Assembly: GCA_009663185.1 (NCBI GenBank)
Contig: VJZX01000007.1
Location: forward strand, 62,001 to 126,000
Reading direction: 5' to 3'
DNA: 64,000 nt
From: Isoptericola halalbus
GTDB taxonomy: Bacteria > Actinomycetota > Actinomycetes > Actinomycetales > Cellulomonadaceae
In this document: in pieces, positions 14,069 to 27,472 of the stretch
Layout of the letters: every line of letters starts with the position of its first letter
How positions within the stretch are numbered: the stretch's first letter is position 1
Made by a program: the position numbers and the translations under genes
Notes under the pieces: generated by a model
The model's input: only the letters and a program-made list of their open reading frames with translations
What the model was told of the DNA's origin: nothing
Databases searched by the model: none

Positions 14069-15253
14069 TCAGGGCTTCGTCGACGCCTGCACCGTGGCGA
14101 GGTACTCGGCGCGGGCAGCGACGTCCGGCACGACGACGTGAAGCGGGTTCTCCTGAACCGGCGTCGGGGTGCGGCGGCGGAGCGCGTCGCGAAATGTCGG
14201 GGCGAGGCTGCGCATCGTGCTGGAGCGAGCATTCTGGTACACGATCCGTGCCGTGCTGCGGCCACCTGGTACCCACGGGAGCGGCACGATGCGGTCGGCC
14301 ACCGCGGTGGCCGTGCGCCACACGGCACAGCGTGTGGCTGGCCTCGTCGCTTCGGCAGGCAACGGGAACAACCGTGCCGCACGGTCCAGAGCGAGCCGAA
14401 GAGGCAGCTCGACGCCGTACGCACGCGCTCGGGCATGGACGATGCCCCAGCCGAGCTCGTCGCGGCACGCCGTGGCCATGTCCATGAGCCACAGCAGGCG
14501 GTATCCCCCGGAGAGCGTCGTGTGGTAGCCGAGGTGCAGCAGGGTGTCGACAGGGTCGAGCACCGGCGCCTCGGTACTGCCGACCGTGACCACGGATGCT
14601 CGTTCGAGCAGCTCCTCGGTCGGGAACATGAACTCGCGGCGCAGCGGGGCGGAGTTGACGAGGTCCCAGTGCAGATCGAGCCCCGTGCCGAAGGGCAGCT
14701 GCAGCATCAGCTCGGCACGGACCTGGTCCCGCACCAGCGGCCAGTTCCGGTCGACGAGGCGCGCTCCGGCACCGACGAGTGCGTCGAGTGCGGTCCCGAA
14801 CCGTCGTCGCTCCACCAGGAGGTCGAGGTCGTAGTACTCACGCATGTCCGGCCTCGGCCACCGCTGCGCGATGGCGGCGCCCTTGAGAAGCGCCCAGCCG
14901 ACTCCGGCGGCGGTCAGGGCCTGGCCGGCCGTGCGAAGATCCGCCAAAGAACGGAGCTGACGCATCACCTGCTGGCTGTGCGCTGCTTCCAGGGGTCCGA
15001 GCACCGCGGCGTCGTCCGTGATCTGCGCAAGCGCGAGGAAGACGGCCGGAGCGATCCGGTGCCAGGAAGAGGCCTCGTGGAGGGCACCCGGTGCGACCGC
15101 ACGCAGGTCGGCTGCGGAGATCTCGGCACCGCTCAAGGAACGGACCAGCACCTCTGCGACCACTCCGCGCCGTGCGGCGGAACGAACCCCGGCGCGGCCG
15201 TTCGTCCGGGCGGTCAGCGCCCGATGCGCGTTCTCCGCCGTGTCGGTGGACAT
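14069..15253 (-). CDS. Nucleotidyltransferase family protein (PF14907-type)
   Basis: A 394-residue protein of the uncharacterised nucleotidyltransferase family often found with lasso-peptide genes. The signature region is [32 protein letters not shown] around residues 118-150, with the metal-binding pair in YDLDLLV, then DLHWDLVN and [12 protein letters not shown]. The fold is MNT-like, with catalysis of nucleotide or phosphate transfer to an unknown acceptor. It lies upstream of eno on the same strand but has its own 170-bp upstream region with a paired GGGTGA motif (15337-15364), shared with the RiPP and sugar units. I infer that it belongs to the RiPP locus despite the mfd gene in between. 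Confidence 0.85.
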
Positions 15254-15336
15254 CCCACCTCCTGGTTCCGGAGTCCGCGGTTCGTCGCGGCAGTTCGAGG
15301 CTATGGGCTCCAGACCGGCGGGCCGGCGGCGCCGGG

Positions 15337-15364
15337 GGGTGAACTCGCAGCAGGGGCGGGTGAT
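15337..15364. promoter_or_regulatory. Paired GGGTGA heptamer, 21-nt spacing (site a)
   Basis: GGGTGAA at 15337 and GGGTGAT at 15358 are direct repeats 21 nt apart, 84-111 bp upstream of the nucleotidyltransferase start (minus strand). Same motif as at 20632, 25481, 27147, 29395, 40411 and 44624. Confidence 0.6.
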
Positions 15365-15369
15365 TTCGC

Positions 15370-18300
15370 TCAGCCCCGTGCCGTCCCGACGTTCGCAGCC
15401 GCCGCCACATCGCCGAGGACCACGGCGTCGACCAGCTCACGCGCCCACCGCAGCACCTCGGCGCCGCGCAGCGGACGCCCGCCGATGCGCGCCGTGGTGG
15501 GGAACGGTACGAGGAAGGCGCGGATCGCCGGCTTGAGCACCGTGCCCGGGTACAGCCGCTTGAGCCGCAGCTGCGCGGACTCGGGCAGGTCGACGGGCGC
15601 GAAGCGGACGAACTTGCCCTGAGCCGTCACGTCCGTCAGCCCCGCGCGCCGCGCGTGGTTGCGGAAGTCGGCGACCTCGAAGAGCGCCTCGGCGACGTCG
15701 GGCAGCGCGCCGTACCGGTCGACGAGCTCTGCCCTGACCTCGTCCAGTGCGGGGGCGCCGTGCGCGGAGGCGATCTTCCGGTACGCCTCGAGACGCAGCC
15801 GCTCCGTCGCGATGTAGGACTCGGGCAGGTGCGCGTCCACAGGCAGCTCGATGGTGACGTCGGGCGCCTCCTCCTCGGCCTCGCCGCGGAACGCCTGCAC
15901 CGCCTCGCCCACCATGCGGACGTAGAGGTCGAACCCGACCCCCGCGATGTGGCCCGACTGCTCCCCGCCGAGCAGGTTGCCGGCCCCGCGGATCTCGAGG
16001 TCCTTCATCGCGATCTGCATGCCCGCGCCGAGGTCGGTGTTCGCCGCCATGGTCGCGAGGCGGTCGTGCGCCGTCTCGGTCAGGGGCCGCTCGGGCGGGT
16101 AGAGGAAGTAGGCGTACGCGCGCTCGCGGCCACGGCCGACTCGCCCGCGCAGCTGGTGCAGCTGCGACAGGCCGAGCATGTCGGCGCGCTCGAGGACCAG
16201 CGTGTTCGCGTTCGAGATGTCGAGGCCGGTCTCGACGATCGTGGTGCACACGAGGACGTCGAGCTCCTTCTCCCAGAAGCCGCGGATGACCTGGTCGAGC
16301 TGGCTCTCGCTCATCTTCCCGTGCGCGACACCGACCCTGGCCTCGGGCACCAGCTCGCGCAGCCTCGCCGCCGTGCGCTCGATCGTCTCGACCTTGTTGT
16401 GCACGTAGAAGATCTGGCCCTCACGCAGGAGCTCGCGGCGTACCGCGGCCGTGATCTGCTTCTCGTCGTACGCGCCGACGTACGTCAGGACGGGATGGCG
16501 CTCCTCGGGCGGCGTCGCGAGCGTCGACATCTCGCGGATGCCGGTGACCGCCATCTCGAGCGTGCGCGGGATCGGCGTCGCGCTCATCGCCAGCACGTCG
16601 ACGTTGGTCCGCAGCTGCTTGAGCGTCTCCTTGTGCTCGACGCCGAACCGCTGCTCCTCGTCGACGATGACCAGCCCGAGGTCCTTGAAGTGCACGGAGC
16701 CGGTGATGAGGCGGTGCGTGCCGATGACGACGTCGACCGTGCCCTCCTTGAGCCCCTGGATCACCTCGGCCGACTCGGAGTCGGACTGGAACCGGCTCAG
16801 CGCCTTGACCGTCACGGGGAACCCTGCGTACCGCTCGGAGAAGGTGTCGAAGTGCTGCTGGACGAGCAGCGTGGTGGGAACCAGCACGGCGACCTGCTTG
16901 CCGTCCTGCACCGCCTTGAACGCCGCGCGGATAGCGATCTCCGTCTTGCCGTAGCCGACGTCGCCGCACACGAGCCGGTCCATCGGGACCGGCTTCTCCA
17001 TGTCGGCCTTGACCTCGTCGATCGTCGCGAGCTGATCGGGCGTCTCGACGTACGCGAACGCGTCCTCCAGCTCGCGCTGCCACGGCGTGTCCGGGCTGAA
17101 CGCGTGCCCCTGCGTGGCCATACGGGCGCTGTAGAGGCGGATCAGCTCCGAGGCGATCTGGCGGACGTGCTTGCGCGCCTTGGCCTTGGTGTTCTTCCAG
17201 TCGGCGCCGCCCATCTTGGACAGCGACGGCGCCTCCCCGCCGGTGTACTTGGTGACCTGGTCGAGCTGGTCCGTCGGCACGAACAGCCGGTCGCCCGGCT
17301 GCCCTCGCTTGGAGGACGCGTACTCGATGACCAGGTACTCGCGCGTCGCTGCGTTGGCGCCCGCGCCGAGCGTGCGCTGCACCATCTCGACGAACCGCCC
17401 GACGCCGTGCTGCTCGTGCACGACGTAGTCGCCCGCCTTGAGCTGCAAGGGGTCGACGACGTTGCGCCGGCGCGAGGGCATCTTGCGCATGTCGCGGGTC
17501 GTCGAGCCCTGACGCCCCGTGAGCTCGGACTCGCTGAAGACGGCGAGGTGGAGCTCGGGCGCGACGAAGCCCTTGCCCACGAGAGCGGGCGCGACGAGCA
17601 CGACGCCGCCTTCCGGCTCCTCGGCCAGCTCGGCGACGAGCCGAGCCGCGGTGTCGGCGGCCGAGAGCTGCTCGACCATACGCTTGGCCGGGCCAGGCCC
17701 TTCCGTGGTGAGCACGAGCCGCCAGCCCGCGCGCTGCAGCGACTTGACGTCGTCGAGCGCGCGTTCCAGGTCGCCGCGGTAGGACTCGACGTCGCGCGCG
17801 CCCACTGTGATGGTCGTGACGTCGTCGGACTCGACGACGACCGAGCTCACGTTCGCAGGATCCCCCTCGGCCTCCGGGGTGTCCTCGGGGACGCCGGCGT
17901 CAAGGCTGAACGCCGACAGCGTCCACCAGCCGAGCCCGCGGCGCGCCGCGACGTCGCGCACCTCGGCGAACGTCTCGAACGACGCGGCCGACAGGTCGAT
18001 CGGCGCCGCTCCCCCGGCGACCGCGCCGGTCCACGCGGCCGCGAGGAACTCCTCGGTCGTGGCGACGAGGTCGTGCGCACGACGCCGGACGCGCTCCGGC
18101 TCGTTCAGGACGAGCAGCGCGTCGTCAGGCACGAGGTCGAGCACCGGCACCATGCGGTCGACGAGCACGGGCGCGAGGGACTCCATGCCCTCGACGGCGA
18201 CGCCGGCGGCGAGCTTGTCGAGCATCTCGACCGCGCCCGGCAGCTCCTGGACGAGCGCCGCGGCACGTTCCCGCACCGCCTCGGTGAGCAGGATCTCGCG

Positions 18301-27146: not shown

Positions 27147-27185
27147 TTCACCCCGCGCGACGCCCTCGCGAGCCGAACTTCACCC
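27147..27185. promoter_or_regulatory. Paired TTCACCC heptamer, 32-nt spacing (site d)
   Basis: TTCACCC at 27147 and 27179, exact copies 32 nt (three helical turns) apart, in the divergent region between B2 (minus) and PqqD (plus). Confidence 0.6.
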
Positions 27186-27207
27186 CTCCCCGTGGCTGCG
27201 AGACACC

Positions 27208-27213
27208 TAGGCT
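27208..27213 (+). promoter_or_regulatory. -10 box TAGGCT of the PqqD gene, leaderless
   Basis: TAGGCT ends seven bases before the PqqD ATG, implying a leaderless mRNA. The -35 position has no consensus, while a TTCACCC heptamer lies just upstream, the layout expected of an activated promoter. Confidence 0.45.
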
Positions 27214-27220
27214 CCGAGGC

Positions 27221-27472
27221 ATGAGGCTACGCACAGAGAGCATCGCCTGGCAGGAGCTCGACGGCGAGCTCGTCGTGCTCGACCTCGAGTCGTCCACCTA
27301 CCTCTCGGCGAACCCGACAGGGACCTTCCTCGCGGGCATGCTCCGCGAGGAACGCTCGCTCGACGAGCTGCGCGACGCACTGGTCGCCGAGTACGGCATC
27401 ACGCCGCAGGTCGCCGAGGTCGACGCCCGGGCGTACGTCGACGAGCTGCGCGAGCTGGGCCTGCTCGCCTGA
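27221..27472 (+). CDS. PqqD-family leader-binding protein (lasso B1-like)
   Basis: An 83-residue protein with the PqqD fold (RiPP recognition element): strand-rich start IAWQELDGELVVLDLESSTYLSANPTG, then helices in SLDELRDALVAEYG and ARAYVDELRELGLL. In lasso systems a stand-alone B1 protein of this size binds the YxxPxLxxxG leader motif and hands the precursor to the B2 peptidase. It is the first gene rightward and is followed after 38 bp by a large glycosyltransferase, so a RiPP gene and a polysaccharide gene probably share one mRNA. Confidence 0.88.
   Translation: MRLRTESIAWQELDGELVVLDLESSTYLSANPTGTFLAGMLREERSLDELRDALVAEYGITPQVAEVDARAYVDELRELGLLA

Follow-up and report, generated by a model that had tools for sequence, protein, structure and literature searches.

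A likely phospho-lasso-type peptide pathway with a one-domain cyclase and a long precursor core in Isoptericola halalbus

A 64,000-nt stretch of the Isoptericola halalbus genome (Actinomycetota; assembly GCA_009663185.1, contig VJZX01000007.1, positions 62,001 to 126,000; hereafter the window) likely encodes, as judged from its sequence, a phospho-lasso-type pathway for a ribosomally synthesized and post-translationally modified peptide (RiPP), with a gene cluster that is complete but split. An initial annotation made from the sequence had listed a precursor, an Asn-synthase-type cyclase, an exporter, an HprK-like kinase, a B2 peptidase, a PqqD protein and a PF14907 protein, and family matches find all of them in place. 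Its view of the cyclase needs one correction: the protein is present, but it has only 413 amino acids and no glutaminase-like N-terminal domain. The source genome measures 4.1 Mb (the locus is on our contig C78), and the closest named relatives of the locus are two Isoptericola metagenome-assembled genomes and Cellulosimicrobium arenosum KCTC 49039. The features are as follows (L and G numbers denote loci and genomes).

14069..15253, minus strand: PF14907 nucleotidyltransferase-like protein, counterpart of PsmN/BsfN, beyond mfd (127 bits, cut-off 31.2)
19077..20318, minus strand: single-domain Asn-synthase-type macrolactam cyclase, 413 amino acids, lacking the N-terminal glutaminase-like domain (Asn_synthase 74 bits)
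20326..20511, minus strand: precursor peptide of 61 amino acids, MYQRPTIAVVGSVRRLTLEPIQACKLGFGSDNSFPEQEEGLADLSGEDKEEPMGPDSCFVS, with C-terminal Ser61
20517..20523, minus strand: AGGAGGG, ribosome-binding site of the precursor, read off the sequence
20724..22595, plus strand: MsbA-like ATP-binding cassette (ABC) exporter, divergent from the precursor (longest open reading frame, ORF, from 20616; start 20616 or 20724)
23228..25359, minus strand: GT4 and WbsX polysaccharide genes, context outside the pathway, splitting the lasso set in the window and in L023
25573..26559, minus strand: HprK-like kinase with an H..GKS..DD pattern (HprK_rel_A 36 bits, Hpr_kinase_C 20.5 bits, both below cut-off)
26556..27029, minus strand: B2 leader peptidase (NCBIfam lasso_biosyn_B2 48.7 bits, cut-off 33; alternative start 26972)
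27221..27472, plus strand: stand-alone PqqD domain, i.e. B1 or RiPP recognition element (55 bits; ORF 27044-27472, start 27221 likelier)

The window thus holds both B1 (PqqD/RiPP recognition element) and B2, as lasso clusters do, along with the PF14907 nucleotidyltransferase of the paeninodin type. The precursor has a lasso leader, MYQRPTIAVVGSVRRLTL, in which a YxxP motif is followed by Thr and one further residue (Leu) before a long core with Cys24, Asp31, Cys58 and Ser61; the cut site itself is predicted. The peptide ends in Ser on translation, as had been read initially and as in paeninodin-type precursors. We do not regard it as a chance ORF because it has the AGGAGGG site, its stop lies 7 bases ahead of the cyclase ATG, a composition-based gene caller finds it unaided, a same-place peptide is 70-72% identical in two close relatives and 53% identical in a third, and the nonsynonymous rate (dN) over the whole precursor is below the synonymous rate (dS) in the comparison with L023 (0.195 against 0.524). 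Moreover, a lasso-type precursor candidate was found in all 17 contexts fetched from the family, which were annotated with the same kind of caller and by BLAST against the window proteins. A pseudogene was rejected on the same evidence. The lack of a small conserved peptide at this place in relatives, named at the outset as fatal to the idea, was therefore not what we found.

Considering the core separately, dN/dS pairs are 0.244/0.521 (L023), 0.258/0.324 (L038) and 0.697/0.714 (L024), so that the core is under weaker apparent selection than the leader. A precursor-profile search of 394 genomes of the class matched 25 at E <= 0.1, namely the window, five lasso precursors similar in the leader only (L042, L046, L047, L059, L065) and a remainder of apparent chance matches; a scan for two short conserved patterns over wider genome contigs found 3 relatives.

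The genes are not contiguous in the window. The mfd gene sits between the PF14907 and cyclase genes, PAP2, GT4 and WbsX genes sit between the exporter and the kinase-B2 pair, and a GT2 gene follows that of PqqD. The whole genome contains a single B2 match and a single PqqD match, so the separated genes must process the precursor, if such enzymes process it at all, and the dispersed genes most probably belong to a single pathway. Scattering, as first described, holds for the window but not as a general trait: the GT4/WbsX split was seen in the window's subtype only, namely in the window, in L023 and, judging from contig pieces, in G148. The initial annotation had also proposed a search for the gene set in related genomes, and, leaving aside the window, G148 and G149, all eight remaining genus genomes with the cyclase carry precursor, cyclase, B2 and kinase in one uninterrupted run, with PqqD divergent and the exporter and PF14907 genes nearby. 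That the window cluster is decaying and no longer works seems very improbable to us: GT4, WbsX and mfd genes do lie between the parts and core-only dN/dS is not low in the comparisons with L038 and L024, but all frames are intact, dN is below dS over the whole precursor and the GT4-WbsX split recurs identically in L023.

In several families of actinobacteria, the kinase, a C-terminal Ser and the one-domain cyclase occur jointly, and the surveyed loci separate cleanly on this basis. For this survey, B2 profile NF033537 matched 99 of the 394 class genomes at 129 places; regions were fetched for 80 of these and four more lay on five further stretches, and local profiles were run on 103 stretches (the 80 B2 regions, the 17 family contexts, those five stretches and the window). 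B2 counts from the iterated local profile were set aside, as it aligned wrong frames at several loci, and all survey counts and tests ignore kinship among genomes. Loci whose kinase match reached 300 bits or more formed a strong-kinase class of 33; L038, with the kinase of its genome on a different contig, was assigned to this class manually. Their precursors gave 43 rows, or 41 distinct ones after removal of 2 spurious rows; L077, a strong-kinase locus, yielded none. The precursor pattern demands a YxxP-like motif and Thr, and Thr(-2) is therefore present in every row by construction.

C-terminal Ser is found in 39 of the 41 distinct strong-kinase precursors and in 1 of the 28 listed for no-kinase loci, a few of which look spurious and were all kept in the count. 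That single case, L067, is from genome G420, and the contig that carries it also has a kinase lasso locus, 58 kb off. All 33 strong-kinase kinases, that of the window included, carry the H..GKS..DD pattern, named the H-K-D-D motif in PMC9266682. Within the genus, the kinase occurs in 11 of 18 genomes, exactly those with the cyclase, and B2 lies beside the cyclase in most loci, so that kinase and B2 are not missing from homologous cyclase loci, an absence that would have told against the first reading. Relatives of kinase and cyclase were absent from the plasmid collection searched, and a sequence search of solved structures with the kinase returned HprK plus some weaker, chance-like matches. 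An HprK-rel-A/PqqD_rel_X system was considered and rejected (TIGR04352, 36 bits against a cut-off of 200; TIGR04353, 21.9 against 35). By analogy with PadeK, described as phosphorylating the C-terminal Ser of its precursor ahead of folding (PMC9266682, PMC8498205), the window peptide is probably phosphorylated on its last residue.

The cyclase is the second distinctive element. Cyclase matches occur in 19 of 221 family genomes, one of which (G003/L021) resembles ordinary AsnB and was accepted as such. For the window protein an ordinary asparagine synthase was rejected, given the absence of a GATase domain and the precursor stop 7 bases upstream. It has the Asn_synthase domain, the SGGxDS loop (invariant in 25/25 aligned cyclases) and a confident AlphaFold model (mean predicted local distance difference test score, 90.1) with AsnB and beta-lactam-synthetase neighbours, and is predicted to act as an AsnB-type cyclase. 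The nearest solved folds in Foldseek were TsnB9, beta-lactam synthetase and AsnB (TM-scores ~0.38 to 0.50); by sequence search, no solved structure was related to it.

The window cyclase does not have the two-domain build that is usual for lasso cyclases, though not strictly defining. A profile of the N-terminal domain, built from that region of 22 no-kinase cyclases, matched 42 of 48 no-kinase entries (its own 22 training rows included), 3 of 9 weak-kinase entries and 0 of 35 strong-kinase entries. The last number becomes 34 after correction, since L071 is one broken gene counted twice. The cyclase of L095, missed by the profile, scores 23.3 bits for Pfam GATase_7, below the 25-bit cut-off; with it as the exception, the domain is absent in 33 of 34 strong-kinase cyclases. 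The six unmatched no-kinase entries are L038 (partial), L067, L074 and the fragments L110, L112 and L119; despite the miss, L067 reaches 41.1 bits with GATase_7. L131, L134 and L113 have no Pfam GATase match, yet ~210-220 residues precede their Asn_synthase domain, a region that we presume to be glutaminase-like in naming it so. In a tree of 48 cyclases, the 34 short ones form one clade (100/99) comprising 32 strong-kinase members, L037 and L072; the window, L023 and L024_10787 cyclases group together (100/99) and away from the majority of the remaining cyclases in the window's genus. We found no description of a one-domain lasso cyclase in the open-licence papers searched, as far as their accessible text goes. 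According to the available part of PMC13352647 there is as yet no crystal structure of a lasso cyclase; while that is so, the one-domain clade would offer a natural minimal lasso cyclase.

Core length and the positions of acids set the window apart within the strong-kinase set. Counting core positions from Thr(-2), Asp or Glu lies at 7-9 in 37 of the 41 precursors (at 9 in 33), and these 37 have cores of 19-33 residues. The precursors of the window, L023 and L038 and one of the two in L024 have no acid there; their cores run to 41-43 residues, and each contains exactly two Cys, which L095 alone among the 37 also carries (Fisher p = 5e-5, kinship ignored). This long-core subtype is rare (4 genomes). 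Invariant in all four precursors are Cys24, Lys25, Gly27, Gly29, Asp31, Asn32, Pro35, Gln37, Gly40-Asp43, Ser45, Gly46, Lys49 and Ser61. This leaves two options, an enlarged ring locked by a disulfide or a leader cut at another site.

The L024 genome (99% complete) bears on this choice: a separate cyclase gene follows each of its two precursors, one long-core and one standard, whereas B2 and PqqD are each matched only once genome-wide. If one peptidase serves the two precursors, the simplest cut in each would be after Thr-Leu; Asp would then fall at 13, hence a slight preference for a 13-residue ring. We therefore tentatively and narrowly favour a predicted cut after Thr17-Leu18, with a ring from residue 19 to Asp31 that Cys24-Cys58 would tie to the tail. 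Nearly on a par with it, and likewise tentative, is a displaced cut beyond an insert of 4-5 residues after Thr-Leu, closing Ala23-Asp31 (9 residues, Ile at -2) or Cys24-Asp31 (8 residues); only with such a cut would the window precursor have an acid at 7-9. For a product with macrolactam and disulfide, the calculated neutral monoisotopic mass is 4567.96 if the core starts at residue 19 (4647.93 when phosphorylated), 4100.72 if it starts at Ala23 (4180.69) and 4029.69 if it starts at Cys24 (4109.65), each hexose contributing 162.05. Asp31, invariant in 4/4, would then land at 9, the acid site of 33 of the 37 standard precursors, and Ile(-2) has been reported for a phosphorylated lasso precursor (PMC10368454). 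Against the displaced cut, L024 would need Pro(-2)Gln(-1)Asn1, its single B2 and PqqD matches must also serve a Thr-Leu precursor, and Thr-Leu is kept in all four long-core precursors. Returning to the 13-residue ring, it would be too wide to hold the tail by bulk alone, and a ring-to-tail disulfide would lock it. The entire package of one-domain cyclase, 13-residue ring 19-Asp31, Cys24-Cys58 lock, tail of ~30 residues and a last Ser with a phosphosugar would be a new lasso architecture, which in this full form we hold to be rather doubtful. With both core types, a shared peptidase and two cyclases, L024 would offer a direct test of whether the peptide or the cyclase sets the 7-9 residue ring rule.

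From homology to the published PadeK, PsmN and Bsf steps, the order of events in the window would be as follows. PqqD (B1) would bind the YxxP leader and hand the precursor to the HprK-like kinase and B2; the kinase would phosphorylate Ser61 and B2 would take off the leader. The 413-residue cyclase would then adenylate a side-chain carboxylate, most likely that of the invariant Asp31, and join it to the new N terminus, after which the PF14907 protein may put a sugar on the phosphate and the ABC protein may export the product. We infer all of these enzymatic steps, as well as threading, ring size, disulfide and glycosylation. For the counterparts, PsmN is described as attaching one or two hexoses to phospho-Ser (PMC9266682, PMC8498205), and BsfB1 as aiding phosphorylation and leader removal alike (PMC10368454).

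Several observations weigh against this proposal. The window core has no acid at 7-9, its only acids among the first 14 residues being at 1 and 13, and the weak-kinase L036 precursor likewise lacks one at 7-9. We know of no precedent for a 13-residue lasso ring. Core-only dN nears dS in the comparison with L024, the window kinase and PqqD both score under curated NCBIfam cut-offs, and the TM-score of the cyclase model to the best solved structure is only 0.50. As for the phosphorylation site, the strong-kinase precursors of L026 and L030 end Ser-Arg, weak-kinase loci have C-terminal Ser in just 4 of 7 precursors, and the site is uncertain because BsfK phosphorylates Ser3 rather than a C-terminal Ser (PMC10368454).

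Could the product be something other than a lasso? The single-domain cyclase might make another macrolactam, or the peptide might stay linear and only be phosphorylated, like the linear polyphosphorylated peptides (LPP) of Bacilli. The cyclase clade lacks a whole domain, the long core violates the ring rule, and LPP clusters share kinase, RiPP recognition element, nucleotidyltransferase and exporter (PMC13381572). LPP clusters have no cyclase, however, while the window has one with the invariant SGGxDS loop, and 37 of the 41 strong-kinase precursors place an acid at 7-9, where lasso cores are expected to have one; we thus consider a non-lasso product quite unlikely.

The lasso set (without the PF14907 gene) shares the mfd-pth stretch of the window, ~19-55 kb, with a polysaccharide locus of glycosyltransferases, an ABC-2 transporter, pyruvyltransferases, a Wzy-like protein and sugar-modifying enzymes. 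Two proteins of this locus, at 38002-38913 (303 amino acids) and 51360-53045 (561 amino acids), have no Pfam match at E 1e-5. Polysaccharide genes also lie beside mfd in 5 of the 7 genus genomes without the cyclase (G141, G147, G134, G136, G139); in the other two, G146 and G150, mfd adjoins or nearly adjoins pth, with neither lasso nor polysaccharide genes between. WbsX occurs in 11 of 18 genus genomes, 9 with the cyclase and 2 without, while 2 have the cyclase without WbsX and 5 have neither. In other families, the lasso loci L069 and L070 lie among glmU, prs, rplY and pth. An island site common to both gene sets thus explains the neighbourhood without a functional link: the lasso set uses an insertion site also used by polysaccharide genes.

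A functional link between peptide and polysaccharide is possible. Outside the family, lasso loci with at least one polysaccharide-type match nearby number 6 of 19 where the kinase is strong, 2 of 12 where it is weak and 0 of 53 where there is none (p = 1.7e-4, strong versus no kinase); for at least two matches the counts are 2 of 19 strong-kinase versus 0 of 53 no-kinase (p = 0.07). According to Popov et al. 2026, capsule loci of Bacilli can contain clusters of the paeninodin and LPP kinds, whose roles are given as unknown in the text available (PMC13381572). Such associations, together with the common island, would suit a peptide that is a component or regulator of the adjoining polysaccharide system, a role we judge unlikely, as 5 of 7 lasso-less congeners keep polysaccharide genes next to mfd, WbsX and cyclase occur apart in 4 of 18 genus genomes, and 13 of the 19 outside strong-kinase loci have no such gene. 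Of the original reading, then, the phospho-lasso-type RiPP is supported by the gene set, the conserved peptide and the co-occurrence of kinase and cyclase; the idea of a product made with, or acting on, the exopolysaccharide is weak, given those congeners.

Some related loci deserve mention in their own right. L067:9518-9688 (G420) encodes an orphan precursor, MYQRPEITVIGSVVELTL..., that ends in Ser and whose long core contains two Cys and has no acid before position 14. A divergent two-domain Asn-synthase gene lies ~190 bases from it; no B2 or kinase match is present within the 19-kb stretch, the kinase lasso locus L086 is the one 58 kb away, and the contig has a second PqqD match at 24 kb. 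The strong-kinase locus L095 (G253), whose cyclase seemingly has an N-terminal GATase-like domain, encodes a precursor with two Cys and Glu at core 7. L096, L104, L106 and L114 make up a second actinobacterial lineage, in which the HprK-like kinase scores lower, a PF14907 gene is present and the cyclases lie in longer open frames; of its 4 precursors, 3 end in Ser. L037 (G181) shows several precursor-like ORFs ending Ser-Gly-Ile-Pro(-Gly), a divergent HprK-like protein and apparent internal duplications. Finally, L036:7987-8136 and L039:6411-6560, from two genomes with a divergent HprK-like kinase, encode an identical precursor, MDARYTSPSIEPIGSLHGMTLVTYKDATGTDGIVFTSPDGDIALGPVSS, with acids at core 5 and 10 and none at 7-9.

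The kind of cluster is already known in outline; its one-domain cyclase, actinobacterial host and rare, rule-breaking long core appear undescribed in the open-licence literature searched. A search of those papers for lasso peptides with Cellulomonas, Isoptericola or actinobacterial phosphorylation gave, in their accessible text, one relevant item, an antiSMASH-predicted lasso cluster of Isoptericola sp. AK164 (PMC10425560), of the same genus by name and comparable by mention only, its genes being unnamed there. Phosphorylated lasso clusters have been placed in Firmicutes and Proteobacteria (PMC8498205). With the paeninodin family and pseudomycoidin the window shares the gene set A, B1, B2, C, D, K, N, the C-terminal Ser and the H-K-D-D type kinase motif, whereas their hosts are Bacillota and that of the window belongs to Actinomycetota. 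The Bacillota paeninodin clade has Trp in the leader [Y/W]xxP (PMC13381572, available part), where the window has Tyr. Unlike this family, the window has a long core without an acid at 7-9; its single-domain cyclase may be a further difference. The bsf cluster of Bradymonas sediminis, a deltaproteobacterium (PMC10368454), has a discrete RiPP recognition element, B2, cyclase, kinase and nucleotidyltransferase as in the window, and is a known case in which -2 is not Thr; its peptide, with phospho-Ser3 and a Gly1-Asp8 ring (PMC10368454), differs from our proposal. The LPP clusters of Bacilli resemble the window in their RiPP recognition element, HprK-like kinase, nucleotidyltransferase, MsbA-like exporter and capsule-locus neighbourhood, but are described, in the part of PMC13381572 available, with a signal-peptidase-type (SpI/SipW-like) leader peptidase and without the cyclase that the window has. 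Similarly, TIGR04352/TIGR04353 systems combine an HprK-like kinase with PqqD as the window does, and to this pair the window adds a lasso B2, a cyclase and a precursor.

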